From IMG/VR virus record IMGVR_UViG_3300045741_000574, positions 1 through 43,845 of that record: DNA of 43,845 nt. One strand, written 5' to 3'. The stretch is from a virus. Position 1 is the first letter of the stretch, and each line of letters opens with the position of its first letter. Position numbers and translations under genes: made by a program. The notes below the pieces were generated by a model. The model ran no database searches. It was not told the DNA's origin and saw nothing but the letters and a program-made list of their open reading frames with translations. Shown piece by piece: positions 7,607 through 39,913 of this stretch.

Positions 7607-9088
7607 ATGGCTGACACCGGTCGTCTAGGGATCTTCTCGGATCCGCTGTACCTCCTCCTCGGCGCCGACATCGAGGAGTGGGTGTGGTTCACCGAAGGCC
7701 AGGTGACCGTATACGGCGCGTCTGCGTCGACGTACACGTTCGGCTCCACCACCGTCGGGAAGCGCGACGCGCACGCCGCGTCGGTCACGACGATCACGTT
7801 CTCGTCGACGACGGTCGGGAAGCTCACCGCTCGCGCAGCGTCGACGGTCACGATCACGTTCTCGTCGACGACGGTCGGGACCCGCATCCGGTTCGGCGTC
7901 TCGGCCGCCACGATCACGTTCTCGTCGACGACGGTCGGGAAGCTCGACGCGCACGCCGCGTCGGCCACGACGATCACGTTCGGCGCCTCCACCGTCGGTG
8001 AGGAGGAGGAGAAGGGAAGCTCGGCCACCACCGTCACGTTCGGTGCGACGACGGTCGGGACCCGCACCCGGTTCGGCGCCGCCGACATGCCGATCACGTT
8101 CGGCTCGACGACCGTGGGGAGGCTCTCGAAGTTCGGGGCGTCCTCGAGCTCGTACTCGTTCGACGCGACCACGAACGGGGTCAGGGAGAGGACCGGGCAG
8201 TCGGCGTCGACGATCACGTTCGACGCGACGACCGCCGGCGCGAGGATCGCTCGAGGGGAAGCGTCGCTCCTCGTGTCCGCTTCCGTCGCTTCCGTCGCTT
8301 CCGTCGCCGCGTACGCGCAGTCGTCGGTCGCGATCACGTTCACGGCCACCACCGTCGGTGTTCGCACCCGGCTCGGCGCGTCGGCCACCACGATCACGTT
8401 CTCGGCCGTCACGTCCGCGTCGCGCTCGACGAGCTCCGCTGCGTCGGCGTCGATCACGTTCGACGCGACGACCGCCGGTGAGAAGACGGCGAAGGCATCG
8501 GCCGCCGCGACCTTCACCACCGACGTGTACTCGCGTGGCTACGTCGGGGAGGACGGCGTCTCGACCATCGACCTGGCGTTCACCGCGGTCACATCCGGGT
8601 ACGCGACGGTGAAGGCGTCGTCGAGCTCTTCGTGGTCCGCGACGATCACGACGGTCGGGACCCGAACCCGGTTCGGCGCTTCGAACGCGCCGATCGCGTT
8701 CACGTCGACGACCGTCGGGACCCGGGTCGCGCTCGCCGCGTCGGCGGTCGCGATCACGTTCTCCGCGACGACCGTCGGGCGGGAAGCGCACGCCGGCGTC
8801 GCCGCGCAGGAGTTTCGTCTCGAGATCACGTCGGCCGGCACCCGCGTCATCCGCGGCACCTCGACGACCTCGATCGCGTTCACGTCGACGACCGCCGCGA
8901 CCCGGGTCGTGCGCGGCCACTCGACGATGACGGTGGTGTTCGGCTCGACGACGGCCGGGACCGGTGGCGAGGAGCCCGCCGGCGGCGGCTCGTCGATGAT
9001 CGCGCCGCAGGCGCCCCGCACGCCGGCCGCAGCGGTGTTCGACGCCGACGAAGAGGCAGCCGTCGGGCTCGTCCTCGCGCTCGTCTAG
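7607..9088 (+). CDS. Tandem 20-residue repeat fibre protein
   Basis: A 493-residue protein. A short head (about 35 residues) is followed by some twenty copies of a 20-residue repeat with the core TITFSSTTVG, then a Gly/Pro-rich tail and a short acidic end. Each unit gives two short strands and a turn, suggesting a beta-solenoid or a long fibrous shaft, with Ser/Thr faces and conserved Val/Ile/Phe core positions. No enzymatic motif or cysteine is visible. The copies vary at the second half (KRDAHAAS, TRTRFGAS and similar), which may be surface-exposed. Ribosome site GAGGGAG precedes the ATG. The repeat architecture is seen directly; fibre function is inferred. Confidence 0.8.
   Translation: MADTGRLGIFSDPLYLLLGADIEEWVWFTEGQVTVYGASASTYTFGSTTVGKRDAHAASVTTITFSSTTVGKLTARAASTVTITFSSTTVGTRIRFGVSAATITFSSTTVGKLDAHAASATTITFGASTVGEEEEKGSSATTVTFGATTVGTRTRFGAADMPITFGSTTVGRLSKFGASSSSYSFDATTNGVRERTGQSASTITFDATTAGARIARGEASLLVSASVASVASVAAYAQSSVAITFTATTVGVRTRLGASATTITFSAVTSASRSTSSAASASITFDATTAGEKTAKASAAATFTTDVYSRGYVGEDGVSTIDLAFTAVTSGYATVKASSSSSWSATITTVGTRTRFGASNAPIAFTSTTVGTRVALAASAVAITFSATTVGREAHAGVAAQEFRLEITSAGTRVIRGTSTTSIAFTSTTAATRVVRGHSTMTVVFGSTTAGTGGEEPAGGGSSMIAPQAPRTPAAAVFDADEEAAVGLVLALV
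7717..8960 (+). repeat. 60-bp tandem coding repeat, about 20 copies
   Basis: The DNA repeats with a period of exactly 60 bases; the most constant block is CGATCACGTTCTCGTCGACG and variants. Copies around 7780-7980 are nearly identical, while those near 8500-8640 have diverged. A 9-base run of TTCCGTCGC (about 8280-8310) is nested inside. The pattern suggests expansion by recombination or slippage and later drift. Confidence 0.9.
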
Positions 9089-9286: not shown

Positions 9287-9300
9287 CCGATAGACGAAGG
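9287..9300 (+). promoter_or_regulatory. Late-block start motif, site 5 (protease/capsid block)
   Basis: CCGATAGACGAAGG, 18 bases before the ATG of the prohead protease at 9305. Confidence 0.8.
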
Positions 9301-9304
9301 TGAG

Positions 9305-13364: not shown

Positions 13365-13378
13365 CCGATAGACGAAGG
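13365..13378 (+). promoter_or_regulatory. Late-block start motif, site 6 (tail tube block)
   Basis: CCGATAGACGAAGG, 16 bases before the ATG at 13381. Confidence 0.8.
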
Positions 13379-13380
13379 TG

Positions 13381-13617
13381 ATGAGCGAGACGGAGGGAGC
13401 ACCGATGGTTAGGTTCGTGCCGGCCGACAACGCGGTCGTGAGCACGACCGGCGCTGACGGCGTCACCTTCGTCGTGTCGAAGGAAGGCTTCTCGACAGAC
13501 GACCCGTCGGTGATCGCGGTCCTCGACCGCACGCGGGGCGTGAAGCGCGCCGCACCCGAGAAGAAGAAGCCGTCCGCACCCGAAACCCAGTCCCGCACTG
13601 TCGGGGAGGAGGAGTAG
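13381..13617 (+). CDS. Small protein before the tail tube gene
   Basis: A 78-residue protein. Residues 9-55 have a short beta domain (MVRFVPADNAVVSTTGADGV, then FVVSKEGFSTDDPSVIAVLD) ending in TRGVKRA; the tail is Lys/Pro/Glu-rich. It resembles in plan the small protein after the capsid gene. The ATG was chosen over an adjacent upstream GTG that overlaps the motif. A head-tail joining or decoration role is suggested by position only. Confidence 0.65.
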   Translation: MSETEGAPMVRFVPADNAVVSTTGADGVTFVVSKEGFSTDDPSVIAVLDRTRGVKRAAPEKKKPSAPETQSRTVGEEE

Positions 13618-20140: not shown

Positions 20141-20156
20141 CCGATAGACGAAGAGG
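20141..20156 (+). promoter_or_regulatory. Late-block start motif, site 7 (variant spacing)
   Basis: CCGATAGACGA followed by AGAGGAGAAC. This copy is 23 bases before a TTG start (20164) and is the only one in which a separate, normally spaced AGGAG ribosome site follows the motif. Confidence 0.75.
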
Positions 20157-20163
20157 AGAACCC

Positions 20164-25351: not shown

Positions 25352-25365
25352 CCGATAGACGAGGG
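25352..25365 (+). promoter_or_regulatory. Late-block start motif, site 8 (lysis block)
   Basis: CCGATAGACGAGGG, 15 bases before the ATG at 25367, first gene of the lysis block. The last copy in the window. Confidence 0.8.
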
Positions 25366-25366
25366 C

Positions 25367-27231: not shown

Positions 27232-27245
27232 CCGTTCGTGCAGCA

Positions 27246-27273
27246 GGGCGGCGTCCGGACCGGGACGCCGCCC
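27246..27273 (+). terminator. Late-region terminator
   Basis: GGGCGGCGTCC (27246-27256) pairs perfectly with 27263-27273 across a six-base loop; GTGC/GCAC just outside can extend it. It follows the last lysis gene and precedes the early promoter. No T-run. Confidence 0.75.
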
Positions 27274-27282
27274 GCACGAACC

Positions 27283-32851: not shown

Positions 32852-32982
32852 CGGGTCACTTCGATAGTCACTGTGACCGACGGGCGACGGCTGGTGTGAC
32901 GGTCACGCCGGACGCTTATGGTCAGGCGCACGTTGACGGTATTGAAGGGAGTGAAGGAAGTGAAGGTTCCTTCCTTCCTTCC
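32848..32982. promoter_or_regulatory. Palindrome/iteron cluster, origin or operator candidate
   Basis: Three dyads of GTGAC half-sites: GTGACGGGTCAC (32848-32859), GTCACTGTGAC (32867-32877), GTGACGGTCAC (32896-32906). They are followed by TGAAGGRAG direct repeats (32943-32966) running into TTCC repeats (32967-32982) that can fold back on them. About 150 non-coding bases between the initiator-like gene and a cassette of different codon use. An origin is the favoured reading; a repressor operator for the next operon is the alternative. Confidence 0.5.
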
Positions 32983-33002
32983 TGCGCCGGGTTCTGGCGG
33001 GG

Positions 33003-33464
33003 GTGGTGAAGATCTCTTCGGCTGAGGAGTGGGCTGCGTTTCGGGCGCAGACGGTGGTGTTGTTCGGTGGTGAGCGTCCTGGGGTGAAGCTCGAGGACGA
33101 CCTTGCGTTCTGGTTCGGGGAGGATCCGGTGTTGGTCGCTCAGATCGCTGGTGCTGTGGGTGAGCGTCGGCGGTTGGGGAAGGTGGGGTCGGGGTGGGCG
33201 GTGTTGCACACGGAGGTGGACAGGGAGCGTCGTCGTCCGGGTCCGCCGCCGCAGGAGCTTGTGGATCGTCCGGTGCGTGAGGAGGCGGTTGCTCGGGCGC
33301 GTCAGTGGTTGCTGTCGGCGGGGGTGTTCTTCCCGTCGCGGTTCGAGGTGGAGGATGAGTTGTTCGGGGCGCGGGGCCGGTTGCGGGCGTACGCTGGCGA
33401 TCAGGCGTTGCGCGAGTCGTTGTTGTCGGAGTGGGAGTCGTCGAGGGTGGAGGAGGTGTCGTGA
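33003..33464 (+). CDS. Hypothetical protein with foreign codon use
   Basis: A 153-residue protein: KISSAEEWAAFRAQTVVLFG, then a helical middle and an Arg/Pro-rich linker (ERRRPGPPPQELVDRPV) and a final helical part (ARARQWLLSAGVFFPSRFEV). Two adjacent GTG codons could serve as start. Codons prefer TTG, GTG, GGT and CGT, unlike the C-ending choices of most genes here, which points to a different origin. No family was recognised. Confidence 0.65.
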   Translation: MVKISSAEEWAAFRAQTVVLFGGERPGVKLEDDLAFWFGEDPVLVAQIAGAVGERRRLGKVGSGWAVLHTEVDRERRRPGPPPQELVDRPVREEAVARARQWLLSAGVFFPSRFEVEDELFGARGRLRAYAGDQALRESLLSEWESSRVEEVS

Positions 33465-33799
33465 TCACGAGTGAGGAGTTCTTGGCGGCGTGGATGCGGA
33501 ACGTGCGGGATGGGGCTCCGACGGACACTTGTCGGCGGCTCGAGATGGAGCTTCCGCCGGCAGGGGTGGCGGTGCGTGCGCTTGAGCCGGCGGGTGATCT
33601 GACGGTGGAGCAGAAGATCGCGGTGGCGTTCTCGATGGGGGTGTGTGTGGGGGTGGAGGCTGAGCGGTATCGGGTTGCGGGGGAGGCTCGGGCTCGGCGT
33701 GCGATGCAGCACGCTGCGGAGGAGGGGATCGCTCTGCCCGTGGAGGGGGTCTTGCTGAACCGGAGTCAGCGTCGTCGTCGTCAGAGGAGGAAGCGTTGA
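33461..33799 (+). CDS. Hypothetical protein with foreign codon use
   Basis: A 112-residue helical protein (SEEFLAAWMRNVRDGAPTDT, then EQKIAVAFSMGVCVGVEAER) ending in a strongly basic LNRSQRRRRQRRKR, which suggests nucleic-acid binding. GTG start in a GTGA overlap. Same G/T-ending codon preference as the gene before it. No family was recognised. Confidence 0.65.
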   Translation: MITSEEFLAAWMRNVRDGAPTDTCRRLEMELPPAGVAVRALEPAGDLTVEQKIAVAFSMGVCVGVEAERYRVAGEARARRAMQHAAEEGIALPVEGVLLNRSQRRRRQRRKR

Positions 33800-34029
33800 T
33801 CAAGATCCTGTTGGAGGAGGTCGGGTTCGGTTTGGCGATCGCGCCGGGTGGTGTGCCGGTCATCGCGTTCCAGGATCCGAAGACGGGGATCGAAGTGCGG
33901 ATCCCGTTGCCGGGCGAGTCGAGGCAGAAGCTGATCGACATGCTTGTGGTGGCGGGGTCACCGGTGTCACCGGTGGTGGTGGCGCCGGCTGGGTCGTTGC
34001 CGCCGGTGCCTGCTGGGTTCAAGGGGTGA
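33796..34029 (+). CDS. Small hypothetical protein with foreign codon use
   Basis: A 77-residue protein from a TTG start overlapping the previous stop, behind a GAGGAGG site. A beta-rich first half (GFGLAIAPGGVPVIAFQDPK, TGIEVRIPLPG) is followed by a helix (RQKLIDMLVVAG) and a Pro/Val tail. Resembles short phage proteins of unknown function. Overlaps the sigma-like gene by four bases. Confidence 0.6.
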   Translation: MIKILLEEVGFGLAIAPGGVPVIAFQDPKTGIEVRIPLPGESRQKLIDMLVVAGSPVSPVVVAPAGSLPPVPAGFKG

Positions 34030-34649
34030 CGTGCGTCGTGGATGACCACCTCGATGCTCGCCGGCGGGTCGCTGGTTCGTACGACGTGCGGGCCGGCAGC
34101 GTTGAGCTTGCGCTGCGTCGGCTGTTGCCGCCGCAGAGGGGGAAGTCGTCGACGGAGCGGCTGATGGGGATCGCGGGGAAGGCGTTGGATGACGGGTCGC
34201 GTGCGTTGAAGCCTCCGTTGTCGCCGCAGGAACGGGAGGACGCTCACCAGCATCTCCTCGAGGTGGGGGTGAAGTCGATCGACCGGTACGACCCGTCCAG
34301 GGACCGCGGCCACCTGACTGTGCCGCTGGACGAGCGGTTCGGCGGGTACGCGTACTTCCGGATGCGGTTCGGGCTCGTCGACTGGTTGCGCGCGAACCGT
34401 GGTGACCGCCGGCGCGTGACGCAGATGTCGGTGGAGCCGTCGTCGCATCTCGAGGGGCTCGGTGGGGACGAGCAGTCGCCGTGGTCGGCCCTGGTGGAGG
34501 AGGACTTCTCGGGGAGGGTCGCGTCGCACCTGAAGGTCGAGCGGTACAAGGCGGTCGCGGACGCTTCGGGCATGTCGCTCGGGGAGTGGGCTATCGCGCG
34601 GTTGGACGTGGTGATGGAGTTCGAGGAGGACTGGTGGGGGATCCGGTGA
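34026..34649 (+). CDS. Sigma-factor-like DNA-binding protein
   Basis: A 207-residue protein. Residues about 70-135 look like sigma-70 region 2: REDAHQHLLEVGVKSIDRYD, then PSRDRG, RFGGYAYFRMRFGLVDWLR and ANRGDRRR, close to the pattern FDP.RG..F..YA..RIR..i.dwlR of sigma-28/B-type factors. I see no region 4; instead residues 170-195 (ERYKAVADASGMSLGEWAIA) resemble a ribbon-helix-helix. A factor recognising only a -10-like element is conceivable and would suit the late motif. GTG start; the first part of the gene shares the foreign codon use. Region-2 likeness is moderate; function is inference. Confidence 0.6.
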   Translation: MTCVVDDHLDARRRVAGSYDVRAGSVELALRRLLPPQRGKSSTERLMGIAGKALDDGSRALKPPLSPQEREDAHQHLLEVGVKSIDRYDPSRDRGHLTVPLDERFGGYAYFRMRFGLVDWLRANRGDRRRVTQMSVEPSSHLEGLGGDEQSPWSALVEEDFSGRVASHLKVERYKAVADASGMSLGEWAIARLDVVMEFEEDWWGIR

Positions 34650-35125
34650 CCGGCTCTGCGTTCCTCGGCGGCCCGGCGGACGGCAAGCCGGTGAGCAGAA
34701 TGGACAACATCGTCCACGTCGACCTGATGACGGCGTTGCACGATTCCCTGTGCATCACCTGGGGCACCGTCGGTCGAGGCGGCGGCGAACGATCTGGTCG
34801 AAGCATTGCAACCCTCAAGGAGGACCTGATGGCTGACGAGAGCACGAGGACCGCGACCGAGTTCGTGGTGCTCTACAACTACGACGACGCCGTCATCGAA
34901 GGCGAAGATGACATGAGCTTGCGATGGGTGGTGCTGCCGGTGCGTGTGTTCGGCACGAACGGCGCGAAGTACGCGCTCGACGCCGCGCTCGCGGAAGGCG
35001 GCGAGATCGCGAACCTCATGACGCTGCGGGACGGCATGATGTTCCGGCTCGTCCCGAAGCGGTTCTGGGCTGACGAGCCGTTCATGGTGCGGATCGCGAC
35101 GCAGACCGTGCTGACGGTGACGTAG
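34646..35125 (+). CDS. Hypothetical protein, two possible starts
   Basis: From the GTG overlapping the sigma-like gene the product has 159 residues. It begins SAFLGGPADGKPV, a short motif of many small phage proteins, which suggests this part is translated. A second start, ATG at 34829, has a stronger AAGGAGG site and would give 98 residues (FVVLYNYDDAVIEGEDDMSL, then GAKYALDAALAEGGEIANLM). Possibly both products are made. No function is known. Confidence 0.6.
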   Translation: MTGSAFLGGPADGKPVSRMDNIVHVDLMTALHDSLCITWGTVGRGGGERSGRSIATLKEDLMADESTRTATEFVVLYNYDDAVIEGEDDMSLRWVVLPVRVFGTNGAKYALDAALAEGGEIANLMTLRDGMMFRLVPKRFWADEPFMVRIATQTVLTVT

Positions 35126-36751: not shown

Positions 36752-37345
36752 ATGTCAGCAGGTACGAAGGTCAGGGTGCAGAGGCTGCTCGCACTCGCCA
36801 CGGTGGTCGCAGCCCTCGCGGTCGCGTTCCACGTCTCGCGGACGCCGGCGGCGGTGAGCAGGCCGGCCGCGCCGGCGGCGCTCGAGAAGCGTCCGAAGGT
36901 GCAGGAGCACGGCGCCAGGTTCGGCCCGTGGTGCATCAGCGAGAAGACCGGTGCGATGCGCGCGCTGCTCACCGGGAAGGTGTGCGACGCGAACGAGATC
37001 AAGGTGACCCACAACTTCCTGCTCGGGGCGCTCCAGGGGGCGCAGGGTCCTCCTGGCCCCGCAGGCCCGGCGGGCGCTTCGGTGCAGGGTCCTCCTGGCC
37101 CCGCAGGCCCGGCAGGCGCTTCGGTGCAGGGTCCTCCTGGCCCCGCGGGCCCGGCAGGCGCTTCGTTCGACGGGTTCGCGCAGTGCGAGAAGCAGGACAA
37201 GAAGGGCCACGTCTGCGTGATCGTTCCGATCAAGGGCCTCGGCCAGGTGCCGCTCTACTACGACTGCGGTCCGCAGTCGCCGGCGCCGTGCCCGGCCGAG
37301 AAGCCGAAGGACGACGAGAAGAGCTCCGACTCCAACGACTCCTGA
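36752..37345 (+). CDS. Collagen-like membrane or secreted protein
   Basis: A 197-residue protein. Residues 10-28 form a hydrophobic segment (LLALATVVAALAVAFHV), either an anchor or a signal peptide. A region with GPWCISEKTGAMRALLTGKV follows, then three 14-residue collagen-type units (QGPPGPAGPAGAS plus V or F, residues 98-139), then a Cys-containing part (AQCEKQDKKGHVCVIVPIKG) and an acidic end. Strong site AAGGAGGGG. Collagen-like phage proteins are normally virion fibres; this one is outside the structural region and membrane-targeted, so it may act on the cell surface. Confidence 0.75.
   Translation: MSAGTKVRVQRLLALATVVAALAVAFHVSRTPAAVSRPAAPAALEKRPKVQEHGARFGPWCISEKTGAMRALLTGKVCDANEIKVTHNFLLGALQGAQGPPGPAGPAGASVQGPPGPAGPAGASVQGPPGPAGPAGASFDGFAQCEKQDKKGHVCVIVPIKGLGQVPLYYDCGPQSPAPCPAEKPKDDEKSSDSNDS
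37043..37168 (+). repeat. 42-bp collagen-coding repeat, three copies
   Basis: Units at 37043-37084, 37085-37126 and 37127-37168 are almost identical at DNA level, so they are recent duplications and may vary in number between isolates. Confidence 0.85.
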
Positions 37346-39540: not shown

Positions 39541-39695
39541 CAGATGCCGACCGCGTAGTGGACGGCAACCGCGAAGAACACGACGAACCCGATCGCGACG
39601 ACGAGCGTCCACAGCCCCTGCTTGAGTCCCGCGAAGCCGCGCACGACGACGAGCAGGAACGCCGCCGGAACGATGAGGAACCACCAGCCGCTCAC
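39540..39695 (-). CDS. Small two-helix membrane protein
   Basis: A 51-residue protein with GTG start: SGWWFLIVPAAFLLVVVRGF, then LWTLVVAIGFVVFFAVAVHY. Two membrane segments, short loop. Start and stop overlap both neighbours (GTGA, ATGA-like), so it is probably translated. No family was recognised. Confidence 0.6.
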   Translation of the reverse strand: MSGWWFLIVPAAFLLVVVRGFAGLKQGLWTLVVAIGFVVFFAVAVHYAVGI

Positions 39696-39913
39696 GACCG
39701 GGCCGCCTGCGTCACGATCTGGGACACGTACTGGTGGGTGATGCCGAGCACCTCGGAGATCTCAACGAGCCTGAGCCCGGCCGCGCGAGCCGCCAGCGCC
39801 GCGTCGCGTGTCTGCCGGTCGACCTCCATGCGCTTCGCTTCCAGACGCTCACGCGCCCGCGCAGCGCGCCGCAGCGACCGCACGGCGGCCGCCCTCTCAT
39901 CGTCAACGGACAT
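39692..39913 (-). CDS. Helix-turn-helix DNA-binding protein
   Basis: A 73-residue protein: a basic helix (RAAARARERLEAKRMEVDRQ) precedes an HTH of sigma-70 region 4/TrfB-like type (AGLRLVEISEVLGITHQYVS, then QIVTQAAR). Probably a transcription regulator of the early leftward genes. Confidence 0.7.
   Translation of the reverse strand: MSVDDERAAAVRSLRRAARARERLEAKRMEVDRQTRDAALAARAAGLRLVEISEVLGITHQYVSQIVTQAARS

Follow-up and report, generated by a model that had tools for sequence, protein, structure and literature searches.

A sigma region 2-like phage protein as a possible reader of a late motif adjoining start codons

Introduction

The T4 protein gp55 has no region 4. A homologue of sigma region 2, it directs the host polymerase to late promoters made up of a –10 element alone, with no conserved –35 (PMC7892883). 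Promoters of the flagellar/WhiG type combine the –10 element GCCGATAA with a TAAA –35 element (PMC8325347), and in the SigO–RsoA system of Bacillus subtilis sigma region 2 resides on a separate polypeptide (PMC8103513). Short repeats beside start codons are likewise known from phages: the cluster K SAS, GGGATAGGAGCCC, are separated from start codons, usually ATG, by 3–7 bp, with nearly all pointing in the same direction (PMC3203893), and are presumed to be translational (PMC11373665). In mycobacteria, a 5′ ATG or GTG is enough for leaderless translation, while TTG fails (PMC4633059). Little is established about late promoters, or about the factors that read them, in actinobacterial phages (for mycobacteriophages, see PMC11373665).

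Here we describe a virus record of 43,845 bp (69% G+C; hereafter the window, meaning this whole stretch), which has a 126-bp direct repeat at both ends and in which a late motif recurs ahead of late genes. A preliminary description had suggested that a sigma-like protein encoded in the same record, P0001 (207 aa; 34026–34649, + strand), may read this motif, and we put the probability of that explanation at about one in three. In function, T4 gp55 is the nearest known parallel, and the locus has in common with it the likeness to region 2 and a –10-like element that lacks a –35. Unlike in the T4 system, which includes gp33 and the clamp gp45, neither partner was identified here and P0001 has no PHROG match; the motif also differs in sequence from the T4 late promoter and adjoins start codons, and the phage is small and high in GC.

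Gene order of the virus record

Rightward genes for terminase, portal, head protease, major head protein and tail proteins fill ~1–27 kb, and genes for RecT, a DUF2303-type protein, a Cas4-like exonuclease and a VRR nuclease lie 3′ of this late module. The terminase is ~27% identical to that of the best known phages and 35% identical to that of the best viral contig, which marks the virus as one without a near relative. Directly past the last late genes, positions 27232–27282 form a very strong inverted repeat (GTTCGTGC...GGGCGGCGTCC / GGACGCCGCCC...GCACGAAC), likely a terminator ending the late unit, and downstream of it a housekeeping-like promoter (TTGTGT-18-TAGTCT) precedes the RecT operon. 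Scans with terminator and sigma-70 promoter consensus sequences remained at chance level.

The late motif and its distance to start codons

The late motif, CCGATAGACGA, is present in eight copies, all on the + strand and all ahead of late genes. Written out, it reads CCGATAGACGARGG, with eleven bases invariant in 8/8 copies, and its 10-base core, CCGATAGACG, has eight exact occurrences on the + strand and none on the – strand (0.03–0.07 expected per strand). A matrix scan separated the eight copies (26.0–31.5 bits) from the next best sites, which scored 12.8 bits on the + strand and 8.6 bits on the – strand. The motif is almost certainly a functional element.

Three copies stand near the left end: copy 1 (512–526; CCGATAGACGAGGGT) is followed by GTG 527 of a 41-aa ORF, copy 2 (646–660) by ATG 661 of a 77-aa ORF, and copy 3 (977–991) by ATG 992 of the likely terminase small subunit (PHROG E 0.0066). 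Copy 4 (2881–2896; CCGATAGACGAAGGTG) precedes ATG 2897 of a 63-aa protein that overlaps the start of the portal gene, and copy 5 (9287–9304) precedes ATG 9305 of the head maturation protease, with the major head protein next. Copy 6 (13365–13380) leads into the tail module at ATG 13381, the gene also having an alternative in-frame ATG at 13405 with GGAGGGAG ahead of it. Copy 7 (20141–20163; CCGATAGACGAAGAGGAGAACCC) is followed by TTG 20164, and copy 8 (25352–25366) by ATG 25367 of a 59-aa ORF overlapping the next gene. Directly 5′ of copy 2, positions 615–645 resemble the 3′ end of a tRNA (GGTTCGAGCCCCGCCCCCGCA); this sequence has no Rfam match and is possibly a tRNA remnant or attachment-like. 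Outside the window, 70 viral stretches containing CCGATAGACGARGGT had one copy each, mostly without an adjacent start, and were dismissed as chance occurrences, while the L082 repeat located 3′ of its terminase turned out to be a terminator-like hairpin, unlike the late motif.

All eight copies contain CCGATA. The preliminary description had likened this hexamer to the sigma-28 –10 box, and it does fit the flagellar/WhiG element GCCGATAA (PMC8325347). Upstream of the motif no column was conserved above the null level, from which it follows, in agreement with the earlier account, that there is no –35; TAAA was found within 35 nt upstream of 0/8 copies.

For seven of the eight copies, a frame of at least 41 codons begins with ATG or GTG 15–18 nt on, an arrangement seen at 6.8% of random late positions; a start codon had been anticipated at this distance, where transcription would be expected to start. 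In these seven genes, the best anti-Shine–Dalgarno pairing is merely 0–2 nt from the start codon. A Shine–Dalgarno sequence of workable strength and spacing (4–12 nt) is present in 1/8 motif genes vs. 37/46 other genes, a contrast inflated by the picking of gene starts with a Shine–Dalgarno bonus. The one exception is copy 7, which has a TTG start at 23 nt and alone possesses a real, properly placed Shine–Dalgarno sequence (GAGGAG). By the mycobacterial leaderless rule, this division—ATG or GTG without a Shine–Dalgarno sequence, TTG with one—is the one predicted for transcripts that begin roughly where the motif ends. Later in-frame starts with some Shine–Dalgarno complementarity follow copies 1, 2 and 6, and short leaders are therefore possible on some motif-gene mRNAs.

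Resemblance of P0001 to sigma-70 region 2

The ORF of P0001 begins with a GTG that overlaps the upstream TGA stop (GTGA), and its G+C content at codon positions 1/2/3 (0.70/0.47/0.89) identifies it as a real coding gene, about which there is hardly any doubt. Its place in the rightward non-structural block is a sensible location for a late regulator. P0001 is the last gene of an overlapping operon of four that makes up an islet of foreign base composition (32860–34650, + strand; G 44%, C 23%), where G is strongly enriched at the third position of codons. None of the other three ORFs has a family match, and the two that were searched for homologues are both orphans. Ahead of the islet, at ~32852–32905, lie GTGACnGTCAC-like palindromes; islet and palindromes together look like an acquired cassette carrying its own operator.

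The profile search that had been proposed as a check on P0001 returned the expected family, Sigma70_r2, as the only Pfam match up to E = 10 (residues 67–125, E = 0.067), with a score of 13.4 bits that falls below the curated cut-off of 24. NCBIfam TIGR02937 aligned with residues 68–134 at E = 0.2, ranking fourth of four weak matches, and no PHROGs family matched up to E = 1. When the Sigma70_r2 model was run against all six frames of the window, an HNH-like frame came out near-equal by chance (11.6 vs. 11.1 bits). As the Pfam score is weak on its own and this chance match is close, comparisons against shuffled sequences and against the rest of the window were made.

A narrow profile built from five region 2 sequences of FliA/WhiG/SigF/SigB placed P0001 first among 564 stop-to-stop frames of the window, and 0/3000 shuffles equalled it; a broader profile that also included RpoD/SigA and RpoE was weaker, with 9/3000 shuffles above P0001. 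In a gapless count over 19 positions at which two FliA sequences and one WhiG sequence are identical, P0001 has 9/19 of the residues, the top value among 60,807 windows and one reached by 6/20,000 shuffles. The alignment by hhalign gave P = 0.0038 (0/200 shuffles), its own probability being merely 8.8%. The likeness to region 2 of sigma-28/B-like factors, first noticed from the sequence alone, thus held in the narrow profile, the residue count and hhalign, all of which beat their controls.

The likeness is confined to two blocks. The first, resembling regions 2.1–2.2 (residues 71–92, EDAHQHLLEVGVKSIDRYDPSR; 34236–34301, + strand), is in gapless register with FliA, its D72, Q75 and the D/R-Y-D of DRYDP aligning directly; the string YDPSRDRG spans residues 88–95. 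The second resembles regions 2.3–2.4 (residues 105–131, FGGYAYFRMRFGLVDWLRANRGDRRRV; 34338–34418, + strand) and includes FGGYAYFRMRFGLVDWLR at residues 105–122; here F105, Y108, A109, R112, R114, D119, R122, R129 and V131 correspond to FliA F67, Y70, A71, R74, R76, D81, R84, R91 and V93. In FliA, R74, D81, R84 and R91 have a role in reading –10 DNA. Between the blocks, a spacer of 12 residues (DRGHLTVPLDER; 34302–34337, + strand) is ~9 residues longer than in FliA/WhiG, and apart from this loop P0001 keeps gapless register with both FliA and WhiG. The region 2.2–2.4 pattern of D..Q, (F/Y)D, F..YA..R.R and D..R is present in register and exceeds what shuffles and the other frames of the window offer. 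Residues ~71–131 are probably a remote homologue of sigma-70 region 2.

Neither P0001 (by Pfam) nor the adjoining frames contain a region 4, including as a downstream frameshifted region 4, and the earlier statement to this effect holds. Single-sequence AlphaFold models of P0001 were poor (pLDDT 40 and 62) and gave no significant fold match; PDB matches proved to be designed repeat proteins picked up through the YDPSRD string and were discarded.

Searches for homologues of P0001 by tblastn found no match among phages, and the sole plasmid matches (E = 7) were ascribed to chance. Searches of viral contigs and genome contigs yielded no homologue either, including one with the FliA/WhiG alignment, and degenerate region 2.3–2.4 patterns retrieved nothing from the collections, although they match this window. 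None of the 50 records of terminase-based phage relatives encodes P0001. A WhiG region 2 query found sigma factors from Bacillus, Vibrio, Klebsiella and faecal phages; the matches listed included no actinophage.

FliA/WhiG offer the best profile match to P0001 and have nine residues in common with it, and the CCGATA of GCCGATAA recurs in the motif. Unlike FliA/WhiG, P0001 has no region 4 that could be found and ~9 extra residues between the blocks, and the motif is without a TAAA –35.

Possible reading of the late motif by P0001

Taken together, these features suggest that P0001 may be a strongly diverged sigma-70 family protein of the flagellar/WhiG type that has kept region 2 alone. It would bind the host core RNA polymerase and recognise the –10-like CCGATAGACGA at the eight late genes without contacting a –35, as T4 gp55 does. 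Transcription would then start ~7–8 nt past GATAGA, on or beside the ATG/GTG at 7/8 copies, and produce leaderless late mRNAs. The absence of a –35 agrees with the absence of region 4. The step from P0001 to the motif is one that we infer and consider plausible; were both the homology to region 2 and the promoter function of the motif granted, we would incline towards P0001 as the reader. On the other side, an islet of foreign composition is an odd home for a protein dedicated to reading eight native sites, and the lack of homologues, the family scores below their cut-offs, the hhalign probability of 8.8% and the poor AlphaFold models leave the proposal partly supported.

The resemblance of the protein might itself be convergence or chance on a different fold, which we regard as unlikely. 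In its favour, all library scores are below cut-off, another frame of the window comes close by chance, and P0001 is without homologues in the searched collections and without a fold match. Against it, three calibrated tests (FliA-type profile, residue count and hhalign) reach p of roughly 3e-4 to 4e-3 and point to identical residues in one register. It is more improbable still that P0001 is sigma-like to another end, be it as a mimic or decoy bound to an anti-sigma factor or to core polymerase, or as a sigma factor for other promoters. Its retention of the equivalents of FliA R74, D81, R84 and R91 suggests DNA reading and speaks against a mimic. Its place among orphan genes in a small cassette of foreign composition would suit a mimic or a sigma factor for other promoters, and sigma-like domains have been recruited as mimics, e.g. 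in PhyR (PMC8103513).

The motif, for its part, could be a start-associated translation element that recruits ribosomes, in which case P0001 would be unrelated to it. We hold this to be rather unlikely and favour a promoter with fair confidence. Like the late motif, cluster K SAS are short, exact and asymmetric, contain GATAG and lie near start codons (PMC3203893); here 8/8 copies are on the + strand, 7/8 adjoin ATG/GTG, and eleven bases invariant in every copy are stricter than most promoters. Unlike the late motif, CCGATAGACGARGG, which has eight copies, is restricted to late genes and has a usable Shine–Dalgarno sequence in 1/8 cases, SAS have a different sequence, number 11–19, belong to the non-structural half and carry AGGAG in the ribosome-binding position. 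Moreover, at copy 7 the motif stands 23 nt ahead of a TTG already equipped with a Shine–Dalgarno sequence, where an element acting at a fixed distance would be needless. Alternatively, a host sigma factor (of WhiG/FliA type or other), or the host holoenzyme together with another phage activator, could read the motif as a late promoter, with P0001 acting elsewhere. The fit of CCGATA to the WhiG/flagellar –10 (PMC8325347), the presence of a second phage DNA-binding protein (HTH, 39692–39913) and the foreign composition of the P0001 islet are all compatible with this, whereas the TAAA –35 of the flagellar consensus is absent at all copies; it, too, appears unlikely.

That second protein, P0006 (73 aa; 39692–39913, – strand), matches Sigma70_r4 at E 8.9e-4, below the cut-off, and also a PHROG HicB-like antitoxin (E 1.4e-7) and generic HTH families. 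It is more likely a generic HTH protein, and a role as the region 4 partner of P0001 is speculative. Herein the locus is unlike SigO–RsoA, in which RsoA partners the region 4-bearing SigO: the sole region 4-like candidate here is this generic HTH on the opposite strand. A full gp55-like late switch in a small actinobacterial-type phage—a region-2-only sigma factor, eight –10-only promoters starting at the start codon and leaderless late mRNAs, possibly completed by the HTH protein—is a doubtful prospect. If P0001 does read the late motif, it would provide a minimal case of region 2 alone working with a bacterial core polymerase and a phage transcription switch tied to leaderless translation; with P0006 as partner, it would extend the split sigma beyond T4-like phages and Bacillus.

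Other sequence features

Two further genes contain internal repeats. One, at 7607–9088, has a 60-bp periodicity, and a tRNA-Arg called by ARAGORN within it (8648–8717, – strand) is probably false. In the other, the ORF at 36752–37345 (Pfam Collagen, E 0.0049), three near-identical 42-bp tandem units at 37039–37164 encode collagen-like repeats.
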